A stretch of 50,737 bases of DNA from Erysipelotrichaceae bacterium. Its GTDB lineage: Bacteria > Bacillota_I > Bacilli_A > RF39 > UBA660. The stretch's first letter is position 1; every line of letters begins with the position of its first letter. The translations under genes were made by a program, and so were the position numbers. Shown one piece after another: positions 3,408 through 41,305 of the stretch. The notes under the pieces are model-generated. The model made no database searches, had not been told where the DNA came from, and saw only the letters and a program-made list of their open reading frames with translations. The DNA lies in NCBI GenBank assembly GCA_022772985.1, contig JALEZJ010000103.1, forward strand, positions 1 to 50,737, given 5' to 3'.

Positions 3408-6400
3408 CATAAATTCTTCTTCTAGAACTTCTGATGGTTCTTCATCATAAAATTCTTTTTCTAGACTATAGCCAATATCCATATATTCTTTGGCGCCTGT
3501 TCCAGCAGGGATTAATTTTCCAATGATAACATTTTCTTTTAATCCATGTAATTTATCGGTTGCTCCTTTGACAGCAGCCTCTGTTAGTATTCTTGTTGTT
3601 TCTTGGAAGGATGCAGATGATAGGAAGGAATCTGTTTGTAATGCAGCTTTGGTAATACCAAGTAGAATTGGTTGTCCTATTGCTGGTTTCTTTCCTTGAA
3701 TGATGACATCTCTATTTCCATTTGTAAAGTCAGAGATAGATACTACTGTACTTGGTACAAAATTGGTATCTCCAGCGTCTTGGACTCTAATTAGAGAGAT
3801 CATTCTCTTAGCAATTAATTCTACGTGTTTATCATTAATATCAACACCTTGTGATCTATATACTTTTTGTACTTCTTTTAAGATGTATTGTTGGACTGTA
3901 TTTGGATCAGTTACTGCTAATAATTCTTTTGGAGAGACACTACCTTCTGTTAATTGGTCTCCTGCATTAATTTTATCTCCTTTTTCTACTTTAAGTTTTG
4001 CACCATACATTGTTAAGTGTTCTCTAACTTCTTTGTCATTCTTGACGTAGATCTTAAATCTACCATTGGCATCTTCAATTTTTTGAACGGTTCCATCGAT
4101 TTCAGAGATGGTTGCTTTTCCTTTTGGAATACGTGCTTCAAATAACTCTTCAACACGTGGAAGACCTTGAGTAATATCGGTTCCAGCTACTCCACCAGTG
4201 TGGAATGTTCTCATGGTTAACTGGGTTCCTGGTTCTCCAATTGATTGAGCTCCCATAATACCTACGGCTTCTCCAATTTCTACTAGATTTCCGGTTGCTA
4301 AGTTTCTACCATAACATTTTTGACAAACACCATGTGCAGTACGACATGTTAAGACGGTTCTGATTTCCACTGCCGTAATTCCGGCTTTGATAATCTTATC
4401 TGCAATATTTTCGGTAATATAAGTATCTTTTTCACAAATTACTTCTTTTGTTTCTGGATTTATTACTTTTTTGTTAGTAAATCTTCCTAAAATTCTATCA
4501 TAAAGTGGTTCAATAATGCCATCTTTATCGTCTGTAAATGCTGTTACTAGAGATCCTTGAGTAGTTTTACAATCACTTTCTCTTACAATCATATCTTGGG
4601 CTACATCTACTAAACGTCTAGTCATATATCCAGAGTCAGCTGTTTTTAAAGCTGTATCGGCACTACCTTTACGAGCACCGTGAGTAGATAAGAAGAATTC
4701 TGATACTGATAATCCATCATTGAATGATGATAGGATTGGAATTTCTACTGGGTCTCCGTTTGGTTTTGCCATGATACCACGCATACCAGCTAATTGAACA
4801 AAGTTAGAAATAGATCCACGAGCTTTAGAGTTCATCATGATGAAGATTGGATTATCTTCATATTCTTTGGATGCGGCATATTCACTTAATTCTGTTTCGA
4901 TATCTTTTTTGGCTTTGTTCCATACTTCTATTACAAGATCAAGTCTTTCTTTTTCAGTAATTAAACCTCTTTGGAATTGTTTGTTAATTTTCTTAACTTC
5001 TTTGTTACTTGCTTCTACTATTTTTTCTTTGTTTTTACTAGTTACAATATCAGAGTAGGCAATTGTAATTCCAGAGTAAGTGGAATATTTGAATCCTTGG
5101 TCTTTTAATTTGTCAAGGAAAATAGAAGTTTCGGTTGTTCTATAACGTTTGAACATTTGGGCGATAATTTTTTCAAGAGCACCTTTATTGAATGGTTTTG
5201 CTCTTTTCATATTTTTAATTTCTTCTTTAATATCTTTTCCATAATCAATAAAATATTTTGCTGGTGTTACCCCTTCAATATTTTCTGATGATGGTTCATT
5301 TAGATATGGGAAGGAATCTGGTAAGATTTCATTAAAGATAATTTTACCTGGTGTTGTTACTAAATATTTATTTTTATAAGTATCTAAGAATACTTTGTGT
5401 TTAAATGAGTTGACTGGAATAGCAATTCTAGTATGAAGGGTAATCTCTCTTCTTTGATATGCCATAAGAGCTTCATTGGTATTTTTGAAGATTCTTCCCT
5501 CTCCTTCTAATCCATCTTTTTCCATTGTAATATAATAGTTTCCTAAAATCATATCCTGTGATGGAGTTACGATAGGGGATCCATCTTTTGGACTTAAGAT
5601 GTTATTAGCACCTAACATTAAAATTCTTTCTTCGGCTTTGGCTTCTTCTGATAGAGGTACGTGAACAGCCATTTGGTCTCCATCGAAGTCAGCATTAAAT
5701 CCTGTTGTTACTAATGGATGCAAACGAATTGCTTTTCCTGAGATTAGTTTTGGTTCAAAGGCTTGAATACCAAGTCTGTGCAATGTTGGTGCACGGTTTA
5801 GCATTACTGGGTGCTCTTTGATTACTTCTTCTACAACATCCCATACTTTTTCATCTTTATTTTCAATCATTTTTTTAGCTGCTTTGATATTGTTAGCTAA
5901 TTCTTTTGCTACTAAGCCATTGATAACATGTGGTTTGAATAGTTCTAGAGCCATATCTTTTGGAATTCCACATTGATACATTTTTAAGTCTGGTCCTACT
6001 ACGATAACAGAACGACCTGAGTAATCAACACGTTTTCCAAGTAAGTTTTGACGGAAACGTCCTTGCTTTCCTTTTAGCATGCTAGATAATGATTTTAAAG
6101 CACGATTTCCTGCTCCTGTTACACTTCTACCACGACGTCCATTATCGAATAGGGCATCTACGGCTTCTTGTAACATACGTTTTTCATTTTGAATGATAAT
6201 AGATGGAGCTCCTAATTCAATTAGTTTCTTTAAACGATTGTTACGATTGATGACACGTCTATATAAATCATTTAAGTCAGATGTTGCAAAACGTCCACCA
6301 TCTAGTTGAATCATTGGGCGAAGTTCTGGTGGGATGACTGGTAAAGCTTCTAAAATCATCCATTCTGGTTTATTTCCTGAGGTTGCAAATGCATTTAGAA

Positions 6401-14249: not shown

Positions 14250-14373
14250 CATGCCATAATAAAACCCTCGTTTTAGTTACGAGGGATAAAAAGGTTAGTG
14301 CTTTTTTATTCCTCGGTAAGATTTTCAAACGTCATTCACGTCCTTACTGTCTTTGGCATAAATTCTGCATTCG
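14250..14373 (-). ncRNA. Ribosomal protein L10 leader (autoregulatory 5' UTR of rplJL)
   Basis: Minus strand GCCAAAGACAGTAAGGACGTGAATGACG...CTTACCGAGG matches the L10-leader signature; ends in hairpin CCCTCGT-N7-ACGAGGG (14265-14285) followed by TTTTATTA. Confidence 0.85.
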
Positions 14374-14379
14374 GGTTTT

Positions 14380-18347: not shown

Positions 18348-18993
18348 TATATTATACGAAGATAATCATTTACTGGTAGTAGAGAAACCTGTTTATATGC
18401 CAGTATGTGAGGATGAATCCCATGATTTAGATTTATTGAGTGTGCTAAAAAATTATTTGAAAGAGAAATATCAAAAGCCAGGAAATGTTTATTTGGGGCT
18501 TGTTCACAGACTTGATCGTCCCGTTGGTGGGGTGATGGTATTTGCTCGTACTAGTAAGGCTGCTAGTAGGTTGAGTAAAGAGATCGTGAATCATGAATTA
18601 GAGAAAGTATATTTGGCAGTGGTAGAGGGAGAGGTACTAGAGTCGGGAGAAATGTTTGATTATTTAGTTAAGGATCAAAAGAAGAATCAGTCTTACGTTA
18701 CGGATAAACAGCATGGAAAAGAAGCAAGATTACATTATAAAAGATTAGGTTATAGAAATGGCTTTAGTTTAGTGGAAATACATTTAGAAACCGGAAGAAG
18801 TCATCAGATTCGAGTACAATTTTCATCACGTGGATTTCCATTAGTTGGAGATGCAAAGTACAATCCACATCATGATGGGAAAACTAGTATTGCTTTATTT
18901 GCTAAAAAGTTATCTTTTTATCATCCTGTTACCAAAGAAAAGTTAAGTTTTAAGTTAGATGTGCCAAAAAGATACCCTTTTAATTTGTTTTAG
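18325..18993 (+). CDS. RluA-family pseudouridine synthase
   Basis: LVHRLDRPVGGVMVFARTSKAA, LETGRSHQIRVQF; overlaps the preceding MTase. ATG 18325 preferred over GTG 18316. Confidence 0.93.
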   Translation: MAELPKINILYEDNHLLVVEKPVYMPVCEDESHDLDLLSVLKNYLKEKYQKPGNVYLGLVHRLDRPVGGVMVFARTSKAASRLSKEIVNHELEKVYLAVVEGEVLESGEMFDYLVKDQKKNQSYVTDKQHGKEARLHYKRLGYRNGFSLVEIHLETGRSHQIRVQFSSRGFPLVGDAKYNPHHDGKTSIALFAKKLSFYHPVTKEKLSFKLDVPKRYPFNLF

Positions 18994-19252
18994 GGGATCT
19001 TTTTTTATTAATTAGCGTTAATTGGTAATTTTCTTTTATATGGGTTTCCTAAATAAGAGACTAAACAATTGACTAGTTATTATGAAAAATATACTTATAT
19101 TGATAATGATTTACCTATTTTCATTTTTCTGATAATTGATAATCAAAAATTTAAAATGTTGTTTTTCTTGTATAATTTAACATTATTCTAGCTTTTTTTT
19201 ATTTTCTCATGATATAATATCTTATACCAACAAAAGGAAGGGGATAGAATTT

Positions 19253-19897
19253 ATGGCACTTACAACTACATTAAATGATTTAGAATGGCAAAGGGTTCAA
19301 CAGATTATACAAAATGTCTTATTTAAAAGAAAATTTCGTTTTAATGAAAAAACAATTAGGAAGGTAATTGGGGAACATCTGAAGCAATTTGGAATGGATA
19401 GTACTATTATGGAATGTTCTTATTTTCAAATTTTATTTTTAAATACTTTGGATCAATTTGTTGAAGAAGGAATTTTATATTATATGGATGGAATTTATAT
19501 TCCTTCATCTTATATGGTATTGCATGAATATGATACTAAATGGGCAGATTTATTATATTTATATGATGATAATTCTCAATCTCCTGTTTATATTAATATT
19601 CATACTTTAAAGGATACAAAGATTCGAAAAAAAAGAGATATTCTTCTAACTGGTGGTTATATGGATCAAGATAATAGTAAGTTATTACCGCCTAATCTTT
19701 CTTTACAGGAAATTGCTTATTTATATCATTCTTTTTTAAAGGAAGGAGCTAATAAGGAAGAAGCAATTTTACATGTTTTAAATTACTATCATATCAAAGT
19801 TTTGATACCAAAAGATGAAATTGGTCGTGCTGTTATTATTCAAAATAAAAAGGATGTTCAAAAGAAAATATTAAGAAAAGATCATCTTCTTAATTAG
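19253..19897 (+). CDS. Hypothetical protein
   Basis: 214-aa ORF with upstream AAGGAAGGGG; no family recognised. Confidence 0.75.
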   Translation: MALTTTLNDLEWQRVQQIIQNVLFKRKFRFNEKTIRKVIGEHLKQFGMDSTIMECSYFQILFLNTLDQFVEEGILYYMDGIYIPSSYMVLHEYDTKWADLLYLYDDNSQSPVYINIHTLKDTKIRKKRDILLTGGYMDQDNSKLLPPNLSLQEIAYLYHSFLKEGANKEEAILHVLNYYHIKVLIPKDEIGRAVIIQNKKDVQKKILRKDHLLN

Positions 19898-19925
19898 TAT
19901 CAATTTATTCATTTTGATAAATTTG

Positions 19926-19997
19926 AAAAAAGACAATTATATTAGAGATTATTCTTAAAGTTTGAGAATAAATCATTCATTTATAATTGTCTTTTTT
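19926..19997. terminator. Bidirectional terminator between convergent genes
   Basis: Long inverted repeat aaaaaagacaattata ... ttataattgtctttttt between convergent ORFs. Confidence 0.85.
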
Positions 19998-20001
19998 CAG
20001 T

Positions 20002-21390
20002 TTATTCCAAATTATTTTTATTTGTTTTCTTTTGTTTCGTTAGAATATAAGCTTTCTTAGTTTCGTTATCAGGTTTTACTAATGAAATATTTGAATACTC
20101 TCCAGCAAAAATTCTAAATAAACCGCTACCAATTTCATTATCAACAAGGGCTTGTAAACTTCGAGCACCACTTTGCTCGGCAATGGATAATTCGGTTATA
20201 TATTCAATAAACTCATCGTTAAACTCAAAATTAACTCCTAATATTTCAAAGAATTTTTTGTAAGTATTGAGTGGACTAAAATTTGATTCTTTTAATATTT
20301 TTTTGATATCTTCTTTCGTTAAGGGATTCATTGCAATCTTTTTTGAGAATCGTCCTATTAATTCTCTCATAATTCCATATTTTATAAAATCACTTGTTGT
20401 AAGGTGTTTATAATCATCTCCATTAGTAATCCCAGTAAAAGCTCCTACTCCTACAATGGTTAATTTTGATGTATCAAATTTTTGATTGTTAAAATAGAAT
20501 TCTGTTCCATCTAGTAACTTTAACAATGATCTTTGAACTCCTAATCTAGAAACATGAGATTGATTGTCTCCAGGTTTTTCTGCTAGTTTATCAAATTCAT
20601 CTATCACTAAAATTCCTTTTTTTGCAAGTTCAATATCTCCATTTGCTGCAAAACATAAATCTTCTAGCATATTTGTTATCTTTCTTCCTTCATAACCGGT
20701 TTCAGAAAGTGATGTAGCATCCTCTATCACGATTGGTATATTATAAAGTTTTGATATTCTTTTTAATATTTCAGTTTTTCCTGTACCGGTAGAACCATAA
20801 ATTAAAATATTTTCTTTTAACTTTGCTATTAAGTCCATATCTAAATTTGAATTAACAACTTTTTGATTTTTAAATAATGCTGTTAGGATTTGCATGATTT
20901 GTTCATCTTGCGATATAATTGTTTTTTTTATTGATATATACATAGATGATATATCTGTTGTTTTTTCAAATTCATCTTCAACATAATCTGAATCACCTTT
21001 TTTACTTTCTTTTTGTAAGTAAGATATTATGTCTTTATTCAATAACTTTGTCAATCCACTACCTTTATCGCTTCTTAAATAATATTTTGCAGTATTTGCT
21101 ATTTTCTTTTTTTTAATTTCTATAAAATCTACTCTATTTTCATTGTCTTTTATTACCCTATCTATATTATCACTTAAAAATACATATTCCCCTTCGTTTG
21201 CATTTTCATTCATGATACTTGCATATATTCCAGCATTACTTCCACTTAAAACATTACATATATTGTTATTGTTAGCATTTGTAAAACTAATTCCTGAAAC
21301 ATAGTCCATAAATTCAAAAATTTCATATTTTTTATTTTGATAAGTGATGTATTTTTTTTTGAATAAATATCCCATTCTTAAACTTGCCAT
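20002..21390 (-). CDS. ClpX-like AAA+ ATPase (divergent)
   Basis: Walker A GSTGTGKTE, IVIEDATSLSETGYEGRKITNML (ClpX DATTLTEAGYVG region), Walker B GILVIDEFDKLA, sensor/arginine region LIGRFSKKIAMNPLT, EQSGARSLQALVDN. N-terminal ~130 aa not recognised. Confidence 0.85.
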   Translation of the reverse strand: MASLRMGYLFKKKYITYQNKKYEIFEFMDYVSGISFTNANNNNICNVLSGSNAGIYASIMNENANEGEYVFLSDNIDRVIKDNENRVDFIEIKKKKIANTAKYYLRSDKGSGLTKLLNKDIISYLQKESKKGDSDYVEDEFEKTTDISSMYISIKKTIISQDEQIMQILTALFKNQKVVNSNLDMDLIAKLKENILIYGSTGTGKTEILKRISKLYNIPIVIEDATSLSETGYEGRKITNMLEDLCFAANGDIELAKKGILVIDEFDKLAEKPGDNQSHVSRLGVQRSLLKLLDGTEFYFNNQKFDTSKLTIVGVGAFTGITNGDDYKHLTTSDFIKYGIMRELIGRFSKKIAMNPLTKEDIKKILKESNFSPLNTYKKFFEILGVNFEFNDEFIEYITELSIAEQSGARSLQALVDNEIGSGLFRIFAGEYSNISLVKPDNETKKAYILTKQKKTNKNNLE

Positions 21391-21483
21391 AAAATTCCTC
21401 CAATATTGGAAGTTATTATATCATAATTTTACTTTTTAACCTAGTAAAAATTTAGATTGAGTTCATTATAATTTTAAGTAAAT

Positions 21484-21539
21484 AAAATACTTATCTAGTT
21501 TGATTCTTTTTATAAAGATATTTCTAGATAAGTATTTTT
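21484..21539. repeat. 56-bp palindromic repeat, copy A
   Basis: AAAATACTTATCTAG-N26-CTAGATAAGTATTTT (15-bp perfect arms); 53/56 identical to copy B at 25333-25388, loop included. Confidence 0.85.
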
Positions 21540-21595
21540 TATATAGTATATTGTTTGATGAAAAAGTTTAGAAAAGAAACAAAAAGGAATATTTT

Positions 21596-21802
21596 TTATT
21601 TGGGATAAGTTCTTTTTTTTACAAATCTGGCAATATTAGTTTCATTTACTTTTTCAGGAATAAATTCTACTTCATCTTGGGCTTGAAGGGGAGACTCTTT
21701 TTCAATGATGTTGGTATTTAAAAGTAAGTATTCTTGATTTTTTGATTCAATTTTTCCTCCATAACCGTTAAATTCGGTAATTTGACCTATTTGTGGCTTC
21801 AT
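21596..21802 (-). CDS. Small OB-fold / cold-shock-domain-like protein
   Basis: 68 aa: GQITEFNGYGGKIESKNQEYLLLNTNIIEKESPLQAQDEVEFIPEKVNETNIARFVKK follows the CSD layout; overlaps the upstream gene by 35 nt. Confidence 0.65.
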   Translation of the reverse strand: MKPQIGQITEFNGYGGKIESKNQEYLLLNTNIIEKESPLQAQDEVEFIPEKVNETNIARFVKKRTYPK

Positions 21803-24800
21803 ATCGTTGATACTCCTCCTTTTTTTTATTTAATATTTCTTTAGCAGTATTTAATTCCTGCATTATTCTATCATCATCTCTTGGGATATAAGCTTCCTGA
21901 ATTTGTAAGTTTGTATCCAGATATGCTATCCAATCTTCTCCGCTTAATAAGTATATTATGTTTTCTGTTTGTTCTGGTGGAATTAGTTCACACTCTTGAT
22001 ATATAGCTGGATTATTTTTTGTAATCATTTGATTTAAGAGATGGAATTTATTTAATTGAGTGGATATTTCTTCTTTCGTTTGGTATTCTCTTATATTATC
22101 TCTTAATACTCTATATTTTGGTAGATTTGTTTTATCTGTATTAATCTTTACATAATCCCTATCTTGTGAAGTTGTTGCTAATACAATTCCACTTCCTCGT
22201 AAATCAAAATGAAATGTTGGTAAATTTTCTTGGATATTTTCTTTTATTTCTATTGTTTTACTGGTTTTATCTTCTTTCATAGCATAATGATCAGTGATAA
22301 AAACGTTTTCAATTGGCAAGGGACTCTCTTTACTTTTTTCAATTAACATTTGAGCTACTTGTTTGATTGCGTCAATTACTTCTTCATCTGAATAAAGATC
22401 TTTTTCGACACTATATCTTAATTCATTTAGAAAGATAGAGTTTCCATTTCTAAATCCAGATACTCTACTAATGAATTTTCCTGTTTGAGAGTCCGTTAAG
22501 CGGATATGGAAAGCATTTTCATTTTCTTGACAGAAATTATATAAACTCTCTCCTACTCCCATAATTCTCATACATGATTTCGTTCTTTCTCCGTAAGTGA
22601 TATTTATTGGGTTAGTAAAATTTCCTAGATTAATATTTAATTTTTTACCATTTACTAAAATATCTTCATTTATGGGAGGAGTTGTTATTTCTTTTCTTTG
22701 ATACAATCTAACTAGATTTTCCACTGCTCGATCTAATCTGGAGTTTGAGTCTCCTATAACGGTTGCTGCATTGGGATTGGGATTTAATTTTATTACTTTG
22801 GCATTTTCTTTTCCTAATAGTACTTCATAGCGATTTGAACTACTAGATAAGACATTGGCATAGTTGATGATTTCTGGTAAATTTATTTCTTCCTTCTTGG
22901 CCTTTTTTTCTTCCATATATTTATAGATTTCATTGAATTTGGTTATCATTGCTGCTATATCATAACTTTCTAAAGATAAATTTGATTTTTCTAGTGATTC
23001 TTTAAAAGTACCCTGCCATTCTGGAAATTTATATTTTTGTAATAGAGATTTTAATGCTTGATATGCTTCTTCCTTGTAAAAAACAGTATCTTGTAATTCT
23101 TTTGGATTAATTTCTTGAAGGATAGAAAATATGGGAAAGTCATCATGGGGAACATGATAAATTTTTTTGACGTCGTAATTGCTATATTTTATTTGTGTTT
23201 TAATGTTTGGAGATATTTTTTCATCTTTTATCATGTATCTTAAAATTTCTTTTAACTTTGTTATATTTTGTTTTGTTTCTTTGGTATTGAACTCTTGTCC
23301 CTTTGATTTTAAAAATAATAGACATTCTTTTATTTTTTCTATATTTTCTTCGTTGGGATTAGATATAGAGTTTAAATTTTCTAAATGATAATATTCTATT
23401 GTGTTATATAAATCATCTATTGAAATAATCTCATTAGAATATGTTAATGAGCTTACTAAATCGGCAATTAAAATATTTAATAAGCTATTTTCATCATAAG
23501 TGTAATCTAATTTTAATTCTTTTTCATAATGATTGTTTTTTCTATATTCTTCTCTTTTCTTTCTTAAATATTGTCTATTTATTTCATAGATAATTGTTAA
23601 ATTTTTATCTACATCTTCTTTATTTTTTATTTTAGTATAAATATCTATTAAGAATTTTTGTGGATTTTGATTGAATTGATCTAACTCATTTTCTGGTATT
23701 ATTTTTAGTTTTTTTATCGTGTTTATATCTATTGCATTTGCTAAAATGGTTAAATCTTCTAATGGAACTGGCAAATTTGGCTCTATTAGGGAATTTTTTA
23801 TTCTAGTTAGACGATTAATGTCTATTTCATGTTCCTTTTTAAAACGGGCTTGTAATATTGAATCATAAATATTTTGGGCATTGGTTATATTTAATTTATC
23901 ATAGGAAAATAGACTCATATATTTGTTGAAGTCTTCTTCTTCTAAATTAATTGCTGTTTTTAGATTATCATTTTCTAAATAATATAAATATTTTGGTCCA
24001 AATCTATTTACGAATTGATCAAGATGTTCTAAGTTCAAGTGATACTCTTTTGCAAGAGGTATCTTCACTGTTTGATAGAATTCTTCATTGTACATATTTA
24101 ATAAATTTTCATGATGATTTATATATTCCATGATTATTAGTAGATTTTCTAAGTTATTTTCTGTTAATAATCCTAATAGTTCTTTATCTTCTTTTATTGT
24201 TTTTAAAATTAGAGCATCTTTGGATAGATTTGTTAATTTAAAGGGAAGTCCTTCTTTTAATTTCTTTTTAAATAAATCTAAGTTGTCTTCATATACTTCT
24301 TTATCACAATTATTTATATATTTAAGTTGGTTAGTTTCTAATAATACTTTTAAGAATTCAGAGTTTGTTATGAGAGGTCCAATACGTTCAAATTGATATC
24401 CTTCTTTTACTTTTTGAATAATTTTTTCCATATATGGTTCTAATTCTTTATTTGAAAAAATATCCACGAAATCTAGTTGATTCATATCTATCAGTAAGTT
24501 CATTAATTCTTGATCATCTTTAAAAGAATGCGTTTTATAATTATGTGTTATAGTTAATTTTTTTCCATTTCTAATGTGTTCTTTTATGATTGGTACTAAT
24601 TCTTGTATTTCTTGTTCATCTTCTATAAAATCTAAATTTTCTAAATAACCGGCTCCTATTAATGGTCTTATTAATTTATTTTTATATTCTTCTTTGGCGG
24701 AACCCCATAAGTTTATACCATAGCCTTCTTTTATGAGTTGTAAGGCTTTTTCTAGGTACTCTTCTTTATATTCAATAAAGTTTAGTATAGAAAGATTTTT

Positions 24801-25241
24801 GTTTTCCAAACAATAATTGATAAATTTTTCGTTTTCTTTAAATTCTTTTGGTAAATTTTTTATTTGATAATTGGGATCTTTTATTTTTTCCATAAAAATG
24901 GAGGTTAAATCTTCTAATTCTTCGTTTGAAATATTAAAATTTGCCATTTCTGTACTATCTATGAAAATTCCCACATTAATGTAGTTTTGAAGTATTTTTA
25001 ATACAATTTTTTTGTTTTCAGCTATTTTATTGTATCCAAATGCAGAAGCTAGAATTCCTAATATATTATCTACTTCTTCTTCCGTTTCTAGAAGGGGTAT
25101 TTCCATATAAGTTTCTAATAGTTTATCTTTTAAATCACTATTTTTTATGATGGGGTAATCTCGTAATTCTCCTATTTTATCAAATTCTTTTTTTTCGATT
25201 ATTTCTTTTAATTCATTGTATCTTTCTAAATTATAATCCAT
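21768..25241 (-). CDS. Large helical-repeat protein with distinct C-terminal domain, function unknown
   Basis: 1157 aa continuous ORF; N-terminal ~800 aa helical-repeat style; C-terminal NITYGERTKSCMRIMGVGESLYNFCQENENAFHIRLTDSQTGKFISRVSGFRNGNSIFLNELRYS looks like a separate folded domain. Confidence 0.9.
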   Translation of the reverse strand: MDYNLERYNELKEIIEKKEFDKIGELRDYPIIKNSDLKDKLLETYMEIPLLETEEEVDNILGILASAFGYNKIAENKKIVLKILQNYINVGIFIDSTEMANFNISNEELEDLTSIFMEKIKDPNYQIKNLPKEFKENEKFINYCLENKNLSILNFIEYKEEYLEKALQLIKEGYGINLWGSAKEEYKNKLIRPLIGAGYLENLDFIEDEQEIQELVPIIKEHIRNGKKLTITHNYKTHSFKDDQELMNLLIDMNQLDFVDIFSNKELEPYMEKIIQKVKEGYQFERIGPLITNSEFLKVLLETNQLKYINNCDKEVYEDNLDLFKKKLKEGLPFKLTNLSKDALILKTIKEDKELLGLLTENNLENLLIIMEYINHHENLLNMYNEEFYQTVKIPLAKEYHLNLEHLDQFVNRFGPKYLYYLENDNLKTAINLEEEDFNKYMSLFSYDKLNITNAQNIYDSILQARFKKEHEIDINRLTRIKNSLIEPNLPVPLEDLTILANAIDINTIKKLKIIPENELDQFNQNPQKFLIDIYTKIKNKEDVDKNLTIIYEINRQYLRKKREEYRKNNHYEKELKLDYTYDENSLLNILIADLVSSLTYSNEIISIDDLYNTIEYYHLENLNSISNPNEENIEKIKECLLFLKSKGQEFNTKETKQNITKLKEILRYMIKDEKISPNIKTQIKYSNYDVKKIYHVPHDDFPIFSILQEINPKELQDTVFYKEEAYQALKSLLQKYKFPEWQGTFKESLEKSNLSLESYDIAAMITKFNEIYKYMEEKKAKKEEINLPEIINYANVLSSSSNRYEVLLGKENAKVIKLNPNPNAATVIGDSNSRLDRAVENLVRLYQRKEITTPPINEDILVNGKKLNINLGNFTNPINITYGERTKSCMRIMGVGESLYNFCQENENAFHIRLTDSQTGKFISRVSGFRNGNSIFLNELRYSVEKDLYSDEEVIDAIKQVAQMLIEKSKESPLPIENVFITDHYAMKEDKTSKTIEIKENIQENLPTFHFDLRGSGIVLATTSQDRDYVKINTDKTNLPKYRVLRDNIREYQTKEEISTQLNKFHLLNQMITKNNPAIYQECELIPPEQTENIIYLLSGEDWIAYLDTNLQIQEAYIPRDDDRIMQELNTAKEILNKKKEEYQRYEATNRSNYRI

Positions 25242-25332
25242 TGTTCTCTACCTCTAATTTAAGATTAACATAAATATTTTGATAAATAAATAATTTTTTT
25301 AGCTGTTGACAATTCTTTAATGATATTTAAGT

Positions 25333-25388
25333 AAAATACTTACCTAGTTTGATTCTTTCTATCAAGATATTTCTAGATAAGTATTTTT
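25333..25388. repeat. 56-bp palindromic repeat, copy B (probable dnaE terminator)
   Basis: AAAATACTTACCTAG...CTAGATAAGTATTTTT, 3 mismatches to copy A, ending 9 nt from the dnaE stop. Confidence 0.85.
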
Positions 25389-25396
25389 AATATCTT

Positions 25397-28336
25397 TTAG
25401 TTTTGATTCTTTTTTTCTAATATTTTTAGATTATTTACGATAATTTGATATTGATCAAATCTTTTTTCGACACGTCCATAAATTTTAATGATATCTTTTT
25501 TATCAATATTATTATGTTCTTTATATATTTTAGGAAACAGTGTTAGAGATATTTGTCCATATTCGTCGGATGCTGTCACAAAAGCCATGATGTCGTTTTT
25601 CTTTGTTGTTACTTCTTTTATTTGATCAATGGATAAAACTAGAGTGATGGTTTTATCAAAATTTTCTTCTATCGATCTGGTGTCTAGATCATAAGCAGTT
25701 TTGTAAATATTAGTAGGATGATTGCTTAAATAGAAGCCAAAGATAGTTAGTTGGTTTTCAATTTTTTCTTCTTTGGTATAATCATCATAAGGTACTAGGG
25801 TTGGGATAGATAGTTCAATTAGTCCTGCATCTTTTGTCAGATCAGCATAATTAATAATATTGTCAAGGTTGTTGATTAATGTTAATTCATTTGTACCAAA
25901 AGAATTAAAACATCCTGCTTTAATTAAAGAGATTAAGACTTTTTTGTTGATGCCAATGGAATAGGTTCTTATGACAAAGTCAATAAAGTCTTTGTAGGGA
26001 GAATTTTCTCTTTTTTTGATAATTTCTCTAGAGATTAGTGTGCCAACATTGTTAATGATAGATAATGGGCAACGAATTGAATCCTCTTGCACCTCATATT
26101 TATCTGTGCTAACGTTTATATCTGGGGGTAATATTTTGATATTATTTTGTCTTATTTCAGCAAGATAAATTTTGGTTTTTGTATCGTTTCCTATGACATT
26201 ATTTAAAATGGCGGTTTCAAAGTATTTAAAAAAGTATGTTTTTAAGAAAGCCATTTTGTAGGCAACAGTAGCGTAACCTACGGAGTGGGATTTATTAAAT
26301 CCATAGTTGGCAAATTTTAGGATTAAATCATAGATTTTTTCGGCTGTTTTAGCTGTATATCCGTTTTGAATGCTTTTTTCTATGAACTTTGGTTTTTCTT
26401 TTAATAAAATTTCTTCTTTCTTTTTTGAGATTGCTCTTCTTAAGATATCGGCCTCTCCTAGAGAGTATCCGGCTAGGGTTCTAGCAATTTCTAGGATTTG
26501 TTCTTGATAAATGATAATACCATAGGTTGATTTTAAGATAGGTTCTAGGGATTTATCTGGGTATTCGACTAATTCTTGTCCATTTTTTCTTCTAATATAA
26601 TTATCAATAAAGTCCATTGCTCCTGGACGATATAGAGCTAAGGCAGCAATGAGGTCGTCAAAAGAGGATACTTGTAATTTTTCTAGAAATCTTCTCATAC
26701 CGGCAGACTCGAATTGGAAGATCCCATCGGTTTTTACTTTTCTAAATATTTCTAGTGTTTTTTTATCATCTAATGGAATATTTGAAAAAGTGATATTTAA
26801 GTTTTCATTTTTCTTAATATTAGTAATTACTTCTTGAATTAAGGTTAAGTTAGAAATCCCTAAGAAGTCCATTTTTAATAAACCTAATGGTTCTAGATAA
26901 TTCATGGAATAAGCTGTGGTATAAATTCCTCGATTGTTTTTATAAAGAGGAATGGTTTCGTCAATGTCACGGTGGCTCATGACGATTCCTGATGCATGTA
27001 TTCCAATGTTTCGAGGTAAGCCTTCTAAATGTATGGAAATGTCAAATAGGCGCTGATACTTGGGATTTTCGTCAATTAGACGTTTTAATTTGATATTATT
27101 TTTAATCGTTTCGGATAGAGTTTCTTTCGAGGATAATAGCTTCGTTAGATAATCTGTGTCTGATGGACTTATTTCTAAGATTCTTGCAACATCTCTTACG
27201 ACTTGTTTTGCGGCTAGGGTATCAAAAGTAATAATTCCTGCTACTTTTTTTTCTCCGTATTTTTCTATTACATAATTGATGACGTCTTGTCTTCTTTCAC
27301 TATCGAAATCAACATCAATATCAGGCATGGTAATTCGTTCTGGATTTAAGAATCTTTCGAATAGTAAATCATATTTGATTGGATCAATATCAATAATTCC
27401 TAGGGTATAACTAACTAAGCTACCTGCTGCAGATCCTCTTCCTGGTCCTACTAAAATATTATTTTGTTTGGCATATTTTACATAGTCCCAAACAATTAAA
27501 AAATAGTTACAGAAATCCATTTGTTTTATAATAGATAATTCTTTTTCTAGTCTTTTTATATATACTTCTGGAACGTTGTCTTTTAATCTTCTTTTTAAGC
27601 CTTTATTACATAGATATTTTAAGTAGGTATAGGCATCTATTTTTTCATCATAGACTGGTAAAAGACCTTTTTCGTATGATAATTCAACATTACAGAGATC
27701 AGAAATTAACTTGGTTGTATTGATATCTATTTCGGTAGTTAAATCCATTAATTCTTCTTTTGCTAAGAGATGTTTTCCTTGATGGGTATTTAATTCGTAT
27801 TCTCCTAAAACTTTTAATTCTTTTATCATGTAAAGATAATCTAAGTATTTATAGTCTTCTTTATATAAATAAGAAACATCATTTATTAATACTTTGTCTT
27901 CTTTTATTTTTTCTCTTTGTTCTTTGTTGCGATAACCTATATAATGGTTGGGATAGATTTGATAGATAGTATTATCAAAATCATCATATGGCATAATTAA
28001 AAGAATTCCTTCTTTATAGAAATTTAATTCTTCTTTGGTTAAGGAGTGTTCTGATACTAGAGTTGATAATTTGATTAGATTTTTATAACCTTGCTGATTC
28101 ATTGCATAGAGAAGTATTTTTTTGTTCTCTATGTTAAGTTCTATTCCAATAATTGGTTTGATATGGTTATTTTTACATTCTTGATAAAATTCTGGTACAC
28201 CAAACATATTATTTACATCAGTTATCGCTAGTGAGGTATAGCCTAAAGATACGGCACGAGCAACTAATTTTTTGATTTCGTTTAGGCTTTGTAATAGAGA
28301 ATAGCTTGTTTTTACTTGTAAGGCTGTATAGTTCAT
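25397..28336 (-). CDS. dnaE: DNA polymerase III subunit alpha
   Basis: PHP start NYTALQVKTSYSLLQSLNEIKKLVARAVSLGYTSLAITDVNNMFG; VGPGRGSAAGSLVSYTLGI; MPDIDVDF; C-terminal OB region. ATG 28336 follows AGAGGTG; the track start 28345 is a GTG in the RBS. Confidence 0.97.
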   Translation of the reverse strand: MNYTALQVKTSYSLLQSLNEIKKLVARAVSLGYTSLAITDVNNMFGVPEFYQECKNNHIKPIIGIELNIENKKILLYAMNQQGYKNLIKLSTLVSEHSLTKEELNFYKEGILLIMPYDDFDNTIYQIYPNHYIGYRNKEQREKIKEDKVLINDVSYLYKEDYKYLDYLYMIKELKVLGEYELNTHQGKHLLAKEELMDLTTEIDINTTKLISDLCNVELSYEKGLLPVYDEKIDAYTYLKYLCNKGLKRRLKDNVPEVYIKRLEKELSIIKQMDFCNYFLIVWDYVKYAKQNNILVGPGRGSAAGSLVSYTLGIIDIDPIKYDLLFERFLNPERITMPDIDVDFDSERRQDVINYVIEKYGEKKVAGIITFDTLAAKQVVRDVARILEISPSDTDYLTKLLSSKETLSETIKNNIKLKRLIDENPKYQRLFDISIHLEGLPRNIGIHASGIVMSHRDIDETIPLYKNNRGIYTTAYSMNYLEPLGLLKMDFLGISNLTLIQEVITNIKKNENLNITFSNIPLDDKKTLEIFRKVKTDGIFQFESAGMRRFLEKLQVSSFDDLIAALALYRPGAMDFIDNYIRRKNGQELVEYPDKSLEPILKSTYGIIIYQEQILEIARTLAGYSLGEADILRRAISKKKEEILLKEKPKFIEKSIQNGYTAKTAEKIYDLILKFANYGFNKSHSVGYATVAYKMAFLKTYFFKYFETAILNNVIGNDTKTKIYLAEIRQNNIKILPPDINVSTDKYEVQEDSIRCPLSIINNVGTLISREIIKKRENSPYKDFIDFVIRTYSIGINKKVLISLIKAGCFNSFGTNELTLINNLDNIINYADLTKDAGLIELSIPTLVPYDDYTKEEKIENQLTIFGFYLSNHPTNIYKTAYDLDTRSIEENFDKTITLVLSIDQIKEVTTKKNDIMAFVTASDEYGQISLTLFPKIYKEHNNIDKKDIIKIYGRVEKRFDQYQIIVNNLKILEKKNQN

Positions 28337-28380: not shown

Positions 28381-29454
28381 CTATTTATTTCCTAGGGTTT
28401 CCATTAATTTTATTGTATCATCTATTACAGAATCAAATTTACGATCTCCTTTTACAATTACGTTACATTTAGAAACGACAATATCTAGGCCACTACTAAT
28501 TTTAATATTATCTTTTGTATTTATTTCTTTTAAAGCAATCTCTTGATTTAATTTTTCTCTTTCCATTAGTCTTTTGATTCTAATATCTTTAGGTACTTTT
28601 ATATAAATTGAGAATACTTCATTATTTTCTTTTATAAAATCTAGTATTTCATCTGATACTAAGCCATCTAGGATGAAGAATTTGTTGTTTTTTCTAAATT
28701 TTTCTATTACTATAGGTAGTTTTTCTTTTACTAGTTGGTCATAGCTTTCTATTCCATTTTTTGAAACATATTCTCGTGATTTTTTAAATCCGGCTTCATT
28801 TATAATTTTAGTAACTTCTTTTCCATATTGAAAGACAGGAATATTTAATGTTTGACTAATATATTGGCATAGGGATGATTTTCCACTTCCGCTGTAACCT
28901 ACGATACAAACGATTAAATTTTTGGTAATTTCATTACAAAATAAGTTTTTAGCATGGGTAAGGTCTTTTTTGTTGGTAATTTCATATTTACAATGGGGAA
29001 AAATTTCTTCTATTCCACAATATTTTTTCATATTATCTCGTTTGTTTAGTCCCTCGATTAATTCTTCTTTATTAGTAATTCCCGCTCTAATAGCTAGACG
29101 GTTTAAGCGATCTTGATATTTGGAGTGAAATGAAATAAGTTGCATTTGGGGAAATATTTTTATTAGTTTATTATAAATATCTATATCAAATATATCATCA
29201 ATTATTAAGTTTTCATTACGGGGTAATTGTTTTTCAATATAATCTAGAACTGCTTTTTTACTGTCTTTTCGATATTGTTTTAATCCTACTTTGGTGTAAT
29301 ATTCTGTTACTCCATTATATCCTCTTTTAAAAGCTTCATTTTTATATATTTGGGGTAAATCAATAAATGTATAATCTTTTGTATCTATCATTTCTTTTAT
29401 AATTGTAGATTTTCCATTGCAGGCATATCCTACTAATCCAAAAATTCTTTTCAA
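28381..29454 (-). CDS. Tandem P-loop kinase-like protein (two NMP/dephospho-CoA-kinase-like domains)
   Basis: Two Walker A motifs: FGLVGYACNGKST near the N-terminus and VCIVGYSGSGKSS mid-protein, each followed by kinase-like segments. Confidence 0.8.
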   Translation of the reverse strand: MKRIFGLVGYACNGKSTIIKEMIDTKDYTFIDLPQIYKNEAFKRGYNGVTEYYTKVGLKQYRKDSKKAVLDYIEKQLPRNENLIIDDIFDIDIYNKLIKIFPQMQLISFHSKYQDRLNRLAIRAGITNKEELIEGLNKRDNMKKYCGIEEIFPHCKYEITNKKDLTHAKNLFCNEITKNLIVCIVGYSGSGKSSLCQYISQTLNIPVFQYGKEVTKIINEAGFKKSREYVSKNGIESYDQLVKEKLPIVIEKFRKNNKFFILDGLVSDEILDFIKENNEVFSIYIKVPKDIRIKRLMEREKLNQEIALKEINTKDNIKISSGLDIVVSKCNVIVKGDRKFDSVIDDTIKLMETLGNK

Positions 29455-41024: not shown

Positions 41025-41305
41025 GAAAAACAGTAGTCTAATCCCTCACTCTTACAAGTTATAGGGACGAACTACTGTTAAAGTCCGCGGTACCACCCTT
41101 ATTATCATATGATTTATGATCTCTTTTACTGATTCTATCAAATCAGTTCAGTTTATAACGGTCTGTTTCCGGCTTAAGATACTATTTTTCCCAAAAGCAA
41201 CTCCAAAGTGTTCTTCATAATACATTTTATGTTAGCTCTCACCTATTCTAACTCTCTTTTATAAAAGTGGTATTATTACTTTTCTTTTTCTTCGTTGATA
41301 TGGAT
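41025..41305 (-). ncRNA. T-box leader upstream of gatCAB-aspS
   Basis: Minus strand contains AAGGGTGGTACCGCGG (T-box), stem I elements GGTGAGAGCTAAC and CACTTTGGAGTTGC, and terminator AACAGTAGT...ACTACTGTTTTT. Confidence 0.93.

Follow-up and report, generated by a model that had tools for sequence, protein, structure and literature searches.

What joins a protein of 1157 aa to one of 68 aa when a gut bacterium encodes them in overlapping reading frames, and what might the two do together? The question is raised by a locus in the window, i.e., the whole stretch of 50,737 nucleotides analysed here, which lies on contig C58 of an Erysipelotrichaceae bacterium draft genome (1.75 Mb in 210 contigs, with an estimated completeness of 89% and a contamination of 6%). 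The large gene (positions 21768-25241) and the small gene (21596-21802) are both located on the minus strand, and their frames share 35 nt (21768-21802). The two ORFs and their overlap had already been described in a first-pass annotation and were found again at the same positions. An AGGAGG ribosome-binding site for the small gene (21815-21820, minus strand) lies 12 nt 5' of its ATG and within the end of the large ORF. Since the reading frames and their pairing are kept in dozens of genomes, the observation exceeds what chance would produce.

Distribution and genomic setting of the gene pair

The initial statement that the large protein belongs to no named family was correct. Neither the large nor the small window protein gave a hit above cut-off in Pfam or any match to NCBIfam or to the PADLOC defence models, and the large protein is not covered by any PHROG family. 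A full-length match to a housekeeping family was looked for and none was found; sequence matches to the MTR4 helicase and to a 3-oxoacyl synthase were at chance level and were discarded. Limited literature searches likewise returned no description of this family or system. A single-protein search covering 98 relatives delivered matches in three other genomes with 33-45% identity, namely G024 (45%) and G006 (37%), both over the full length, and G031 (33%), all with open frames. Of 386 genomes from the same family, 42 match the profile built from these sequences, and they are spread over 30 of 150 genera. In a sample of the class 13 of 395 genomes matched, and in a sample of the phylum 4 of 392, and all of these matches fall inside this one family. 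A scan of a collection spanning 84,980 species gave no match with the single protein and 40 loci with an alignment as query, nearly all in draft genomes. These loci are mostly labelled as uncultured Bacilli, Bacillota, or Tenericutes, many of them, to judge by their titles, from rumen, rabbit, and other guts, and one belongs to Candidatus Coprovivens excrementavium. The hosts of the module all belong to a single family of uncultured gut Bacilli, in which its occurrence is patchy. An origin from phages or plasmids was rejected, as relatives are absent from IMG/VR, phage records, and plasmids. Across the family the large proteins range from 720 to 1740 aa and are only about 20% identical to each other. 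A second and distant member of 826 aa is encoded in the window's own genome (L099, contig C120, 6547-9027); it has no small partner and is adjoined by three mutually similar proteins of about 310-330 aa.

The pairing of the two genes, whose lack of conservation would have spoken against a functional link, turned out to be kept. Among the near-clade members that an unbiased family scan brought up, the small gene is adjacent to the large gene in 18 of 24, and over all loci in 42 of 83 non-redundant members. The geometry was measured in 39 non-redundant pairs: the small gene is positioned downstream in 31, in every case with an overlap of 1 to 53 nt, and upstream in the remaining 8 with a spacing of -1 to 71 nt. 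Where the small-protein profile scores strongly at these loci, the match is either a neighbour of a large gene or part of a fusion. Such a natural fusion is present at L128, a protein of 1451 aa whose residues 1368-1438 form a small-type domain (E 2.3e-17). Furthermore, in one genome four large and three small genes follow one another in a tandem array (L136, 1-14454), which is useful for following the divergence of the module. Pairwise distances of the large and small proteins are correlated (Mantel r 0.62, 0 of 2000 permutations), a value to which kinship contributes and which it can inflate. Overlap, adjacency, fusion, tandem array, and distance correlation together argue that both products act together, and the coupled translation proposed at the outset is supported by the overlap in all 31 downstream pairs as well as by the fusion and the correlation. 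No recognizable small partner was seen near six near-clade members (L046, L053, L054, L055, L059, and L061) or near most of the distant-clade members, so the partner is not obligatory across the whole family.

In the window, the pair is part of an islet of 6.4 kb (18994-25396) consisting of a 214-aa ORF, a ClpX-like AAA+ gene, the small gene, and the large gene. The islet is bordered by an RluA-type gene (ending at 18993) and dnaE (stop at 25397), so that dnaE is the upstream and the ClpX-like gene the downstream neighbour of the pair. In four other genomes of the genus (G002, G004, G005, and G006), the RluA-type gene and dnaE are immediate neighbours, and G003, a fifth one, carries another gene between them. 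The neighbours of the pair differ in almost every genus and are mostly housekeeping genes; L053 and L054, which share one site, are from sister genomes of one genus. No defence-island context was found around the pair. Its presence in 42 of the 386 genomes, its unrelated neighbours, and the lack of the islet between dnaE and the RluA-type gene in four same-genus genomes amount to accessory (gain-and-loss) behaviour. As to the other two islet genes, the AAA+ protein (20002-21390, 462 aa) scores 172 bits, far below the ClpX cut-off of 359, and is not ClpX-like in its N-terminal part, and the 214-aa ORF (19253-19897) has no Pfam or NCBIfam match.

The gene pair is bracketed by an 87-nt palindromic repeat that is present in two direct copies. 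The left copy (21469-21555) contains an internal inverted repeat of 15 nt, and the right copy (25318-25404) is 84% identical to it, or 92% over a core of 66 nt. A handful of dispersed copies occur elsewhere in the window genome. Flanking repeats as a general mobility signature of the module were dismissed, as they were seen at the window only and at none of 12 other loci. On contig C55 of the same genome (L198), copies at 1300-1367 and 4250-4314 bracket a different two-gene unit that encodes a 198-aa protein and a leucine-rich-repeat-like protein of 617 aa, which points to a MITE-like element that surrounds gene cassettes. Elsewhere in the window, positions 28381-29454 encode a protein of 357 aa whose two halves both resemble P-loop nucleotide kinases (AAA_18/AAA_17 twice), an unusual tandem, and ordinary regulatory RNAs are found in the form of a T-box leader (41060-41301) and a ribosomal protein L10 leader (14250-14374).

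Architecture of the two proteins

The N-terminal part of the large protein, about 783 aa (22893-25241, minus strand), is likely a helical solenoid, judging from its composition and from DUF4116 in relatives. Glycine and proline together make up about 5% of these roughly 780 residues. DUF4116 is a repeat that has been modelled as an alpha-solenoid (PMC8078820), and it was detected above its cut-off of 24.9 bits in the N-terminal part of two relatives, L056 (26.8 bits) and L063 (25.2 bits). The same part of the window protein matched neither DUF4116 nor any other family. The long helical-repeat region of the first-pass annotation is therefore confirmed in part: its helical character is likely, and a comparison of the window protein with itself gave no significant internal repeats (best off-diagonal E 0.037).

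The compact C-terminal domain proposed there was confirmed by AlphaFold, and it is larger than the stretch originally quoted, as it extends over about residues 784-1157 (21771-22892, minus strand). With 45 relatives in the alignment, it was predicted with a pLDDT of 94.4 and a pTM of 0.90. Among the PDB matches listed by Foldseek, the best are GNAT acetyltransferases, i.e., NatD (4u9w), HAT1 (1bob), and GCN5/PCAF. The best E-value, to NatD, is 3e-4 at a probability of 1.00, and the GNAT matches have identities of about 8-14% and TM-scores by target of 0.3-0.6. The order of elements, three strands in succession followed by a long helix and then a strand, fits GNAT, and in the predicted model the beta-alpha-alpha-beta-beta-beta-alpha-beta core of the fold appears to be present. 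Among the viral models of BFVD, the domain resembles A0A7G9A3X2 most closely (a 656-aa protein labelled "Bacteriophage sp.", E 1.8e-6); this match surpasses every PDB match, and phage records hold no sequence relative.

The family is recognized by two signatures, GERTxxCxRxxG and SRxSGFRNGN, within the C-terminal motif, which is its most conserved part. In the window protein, the first signature corresponds to YGERTKSCMRIMG (residues 883-895; 22557-22595, minus strand) with the invariant G884 and C890. The second, SRVSGFRNGNSIFLNELR (residues 925-942; 22416-22469, minus strand), forms a beta3-beta4 hairpin with the invariant N934. G884, C890, N934, and Y1043 are found in all 45 relatives, and R1047, G895, G933, and E1129 are kept in 44 of the 45.

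Enzymes of the GNAT superfamily transfer acyl groups from acyl-CoA or, in the FemX/LFT branches, use aminoacyl-tRNA. Their hallmark is a loop of the form Gln/Arg-x-x-Gly-x-Gly/Ala that connects beta4 with alpha3 (PMC4964394). This CoA pyrophosphate loop (P-loop) is present in none of the 43 testable members within 45 residues past the RNGN turn. The domain is thus GNAT-like in its fold and, by sequence, not a canonical acetyl-CoA enzyme. Some GNATs have atypical loops (PMC4964394), and the missing P-loop therefore rejects the label of canonical acetyltransferase and not the GNAT fold. As tRNA-dependent aminoacyl transferases also have this fold (PMC4964394), one may speculate that the domain uses an unusual donor.

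For the small protein, AlphaFold predicted a five-stranded barrel (pLDDT 93.7), and Foldseek returned the cold-shock domains of CspB, CspA, and Unr with TM-scores of about 0.8 and a probability of 1.00; the protein is very short, and no single E-value was below 0.004. The cold-shock-like layout that had been annotated is thereby borne out. By sequence, its profile matches the RNA-binding proteins Unr and CspB, with Unr CSD1-2 as the best PDB match (E 2e-4). The Pfam cold-shock domain (PF00313) stayed below cut-off, with a best E of 0.032 in 1 of 20 members. ThiS was set aside as a candidate, as its match was weak, below cut-off, and limited to one member, and the barrel predicted for the protein is of the cold-shock type.

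The annotation had gone further and suggested that the small protein is a nucleic-acid-binding partner, a claim that found no support when 42 members were aligned to the canonical cold-shock protein of the window genome, as little is left of the RNP1/RNP2 aromatic platform. In most of the members, W7 of the canonical protein is replaced by charged or small residues, F16 by various non-aromatic residues, and H28 and Y29 by mostly polar, non-aromatic ones. Y14 falls into a two-residue deletion of the RNP1 loop in 39 of the 42. F26 is the only aromatic RNP1/RNP2 position that is largely kept (F in 29 of 42). F61, E51, and D44 are newly conserved instead, and the net charge centres on zero. Nucleic-acid binding is thus not supported by the residues of the small protein. 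Non-canonical cold-shock domains (ncCSDs) of Unr, which show the same kind of residue loss, do not bind RNA by themselves and are in contact with proteins (PMC7383231). The small protein is likelier to be a protein-binding pseudo-cold-shock domain.

Proposed action of the pair and rival explanations

We consider it probable that the pair is an accessory module forming a two-subunit complex from coupled translation, with a pseudo-cold-shock subunit docked beside the GNAT-fold domain. Ribosomes ending the large gene would re-initiate on the small gene, and the small subunit would then dock close to the C-terminal end of the large protein, which is the fusion site in one relative, and stabilize or position the GNAT-fold domain. 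The helical N-terminus may recognize a target, on which the GNAT-fold domain would act as an acyl- or aminoacyl-transferase with an unusual donor site around the invariant C890, N934, and Y1043; alternatively, within the same reading, the domain could serve for binding. The earlier description of the large protein as a scaffold is incomplete, as it misses both the GNAT-fold domain as the conserved part and the accessory nature of the module.

One alternative, partly compatible with this proposal, is a dead (pseudo-)GNAT domain that is a structural or binding module only, the pair being a cytoplasmic scaffold. The missing P-loop points in this direction, as does a known protein whose central GNAT domain lacks the Gln/Arg of the loop and is inactive (PMC4964394). 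We regard it as rather unlikely, since C890, R931, N932, N934, Y1043, and R1047 are strongly invariant across members that share so little of their sequence otherwise, and these polar and reactive positions suggest an active or ligand-binding site. Distinctly improbable is a small protein acting as a nucleic-acid-binding chaperone that brings RNA or DNA to a large scaffold. The cold-shock fold is well supported, F26 is mostly retained, and the profile matches to Unr and CspB are to RNA-binding proteins; against this stand the loss of W7, Y14, F16, H28, and Y29 as aromatic positions, a charge near zero, and the inability of ncCSDs with the same losses to bind RNA alone (PMC7383231).

The overlap of a very small gene with its neighbour, together with a patchy, scattered, and tandemly duplicated occurrence, also recalls a type II toxin-antitoxin system in which the GNAT-fold protein would be the toxin and the small protein the neutralizing antitoxin. 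Known GNAT toxins share the fold, and the Foldseek matches include 7byy ("bacterial toxin"). Type II toxins are usually far smaller, and with 720-1740 aa the large proteins are far outside this range. Moreover, intact members occur without the small gene (6 of 24 in the near clade and nearly all distant ones), L128 fuses both parts into one protein, and the acetyl-CoA loop of GNAT enzymes is missing, which leaves this explanation a small chance of being right.

Returning to the two-subunit accessory module, its likeliest role is in genetic conflict or stress, as a defence-type accessory system rather than in housekeeping, a tentative suggestion to which we give somewhat less than an even chance; with no PADLOC match and no defence-island context, it is the distribution that speaks for such a role. 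A more specific version appears doubtful and is put forward as an unlikely one: a new kind of accessory system, spread as a two-gene conflict cassette, in which a target-recognizing helical solenoid is combined with a GNAT-fold transferase that works without the classical CoA site under the control of the pseudo-cold-shock domain. The donor would possibly be an aminoacyl-tRNA or another compound, with an essential cysteine.

The analysis unites about 80 large proteins in a family outside every library searched. Its hosts are gut and rumen bacteria known almost solely from draft metagenome genomes, and it can now be described by a fold, by a partner, and by its invariant residues. An active GNAT-fold domain would mean a transferase whose donor site is unusual. 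A small subunit that binds protein only would be a bacterial example, encoded on its own, of the pseudo-RNA-binding cold-shock domains of the Unr type.

Relation to known systems

The folds of the pair are already known, and no library searched contains the family, the combination, or the system. DUF4116 repeat proteins are the nearest counterpart of the N-terminal part, with a single repeat matched in each of the two relatives mentioned above. The C-terminal domain has the strand and helix order and the overall fold in common with GNATs such as NatD, HAT1, and GCN5/PCAF. Unlike these, the window domain has no P-loop after beta4, is embedded in a protein of more than 1000 aa, and carries its own signatures. 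PcfJ-like proteins (PF14284) show, by eye, a similar order of motifs, consisting of a Cys, an I/F-x-I-R strand, and R-x-x-G-x-x-N, and there is a weak structural match to one phage PcfJ-like protein. PcfJ was rejected, as a profile comparison with nine PcfJ proteins gave hhalign probabilities of 0.1-0.2%.

The small protein shares the five-stranded barrel with CspA and CspB (TM about 0.8 to CspB) and, like the ncCSDs of Unr, is without most RNA-binding motifs. In contrast to CspA, CspB, and the cold-shock domains of Unr, it falls below the Pfam cut-off, has the two-residue deletion in the RNP1 loop, and is itself encoded by a separate partner gene.
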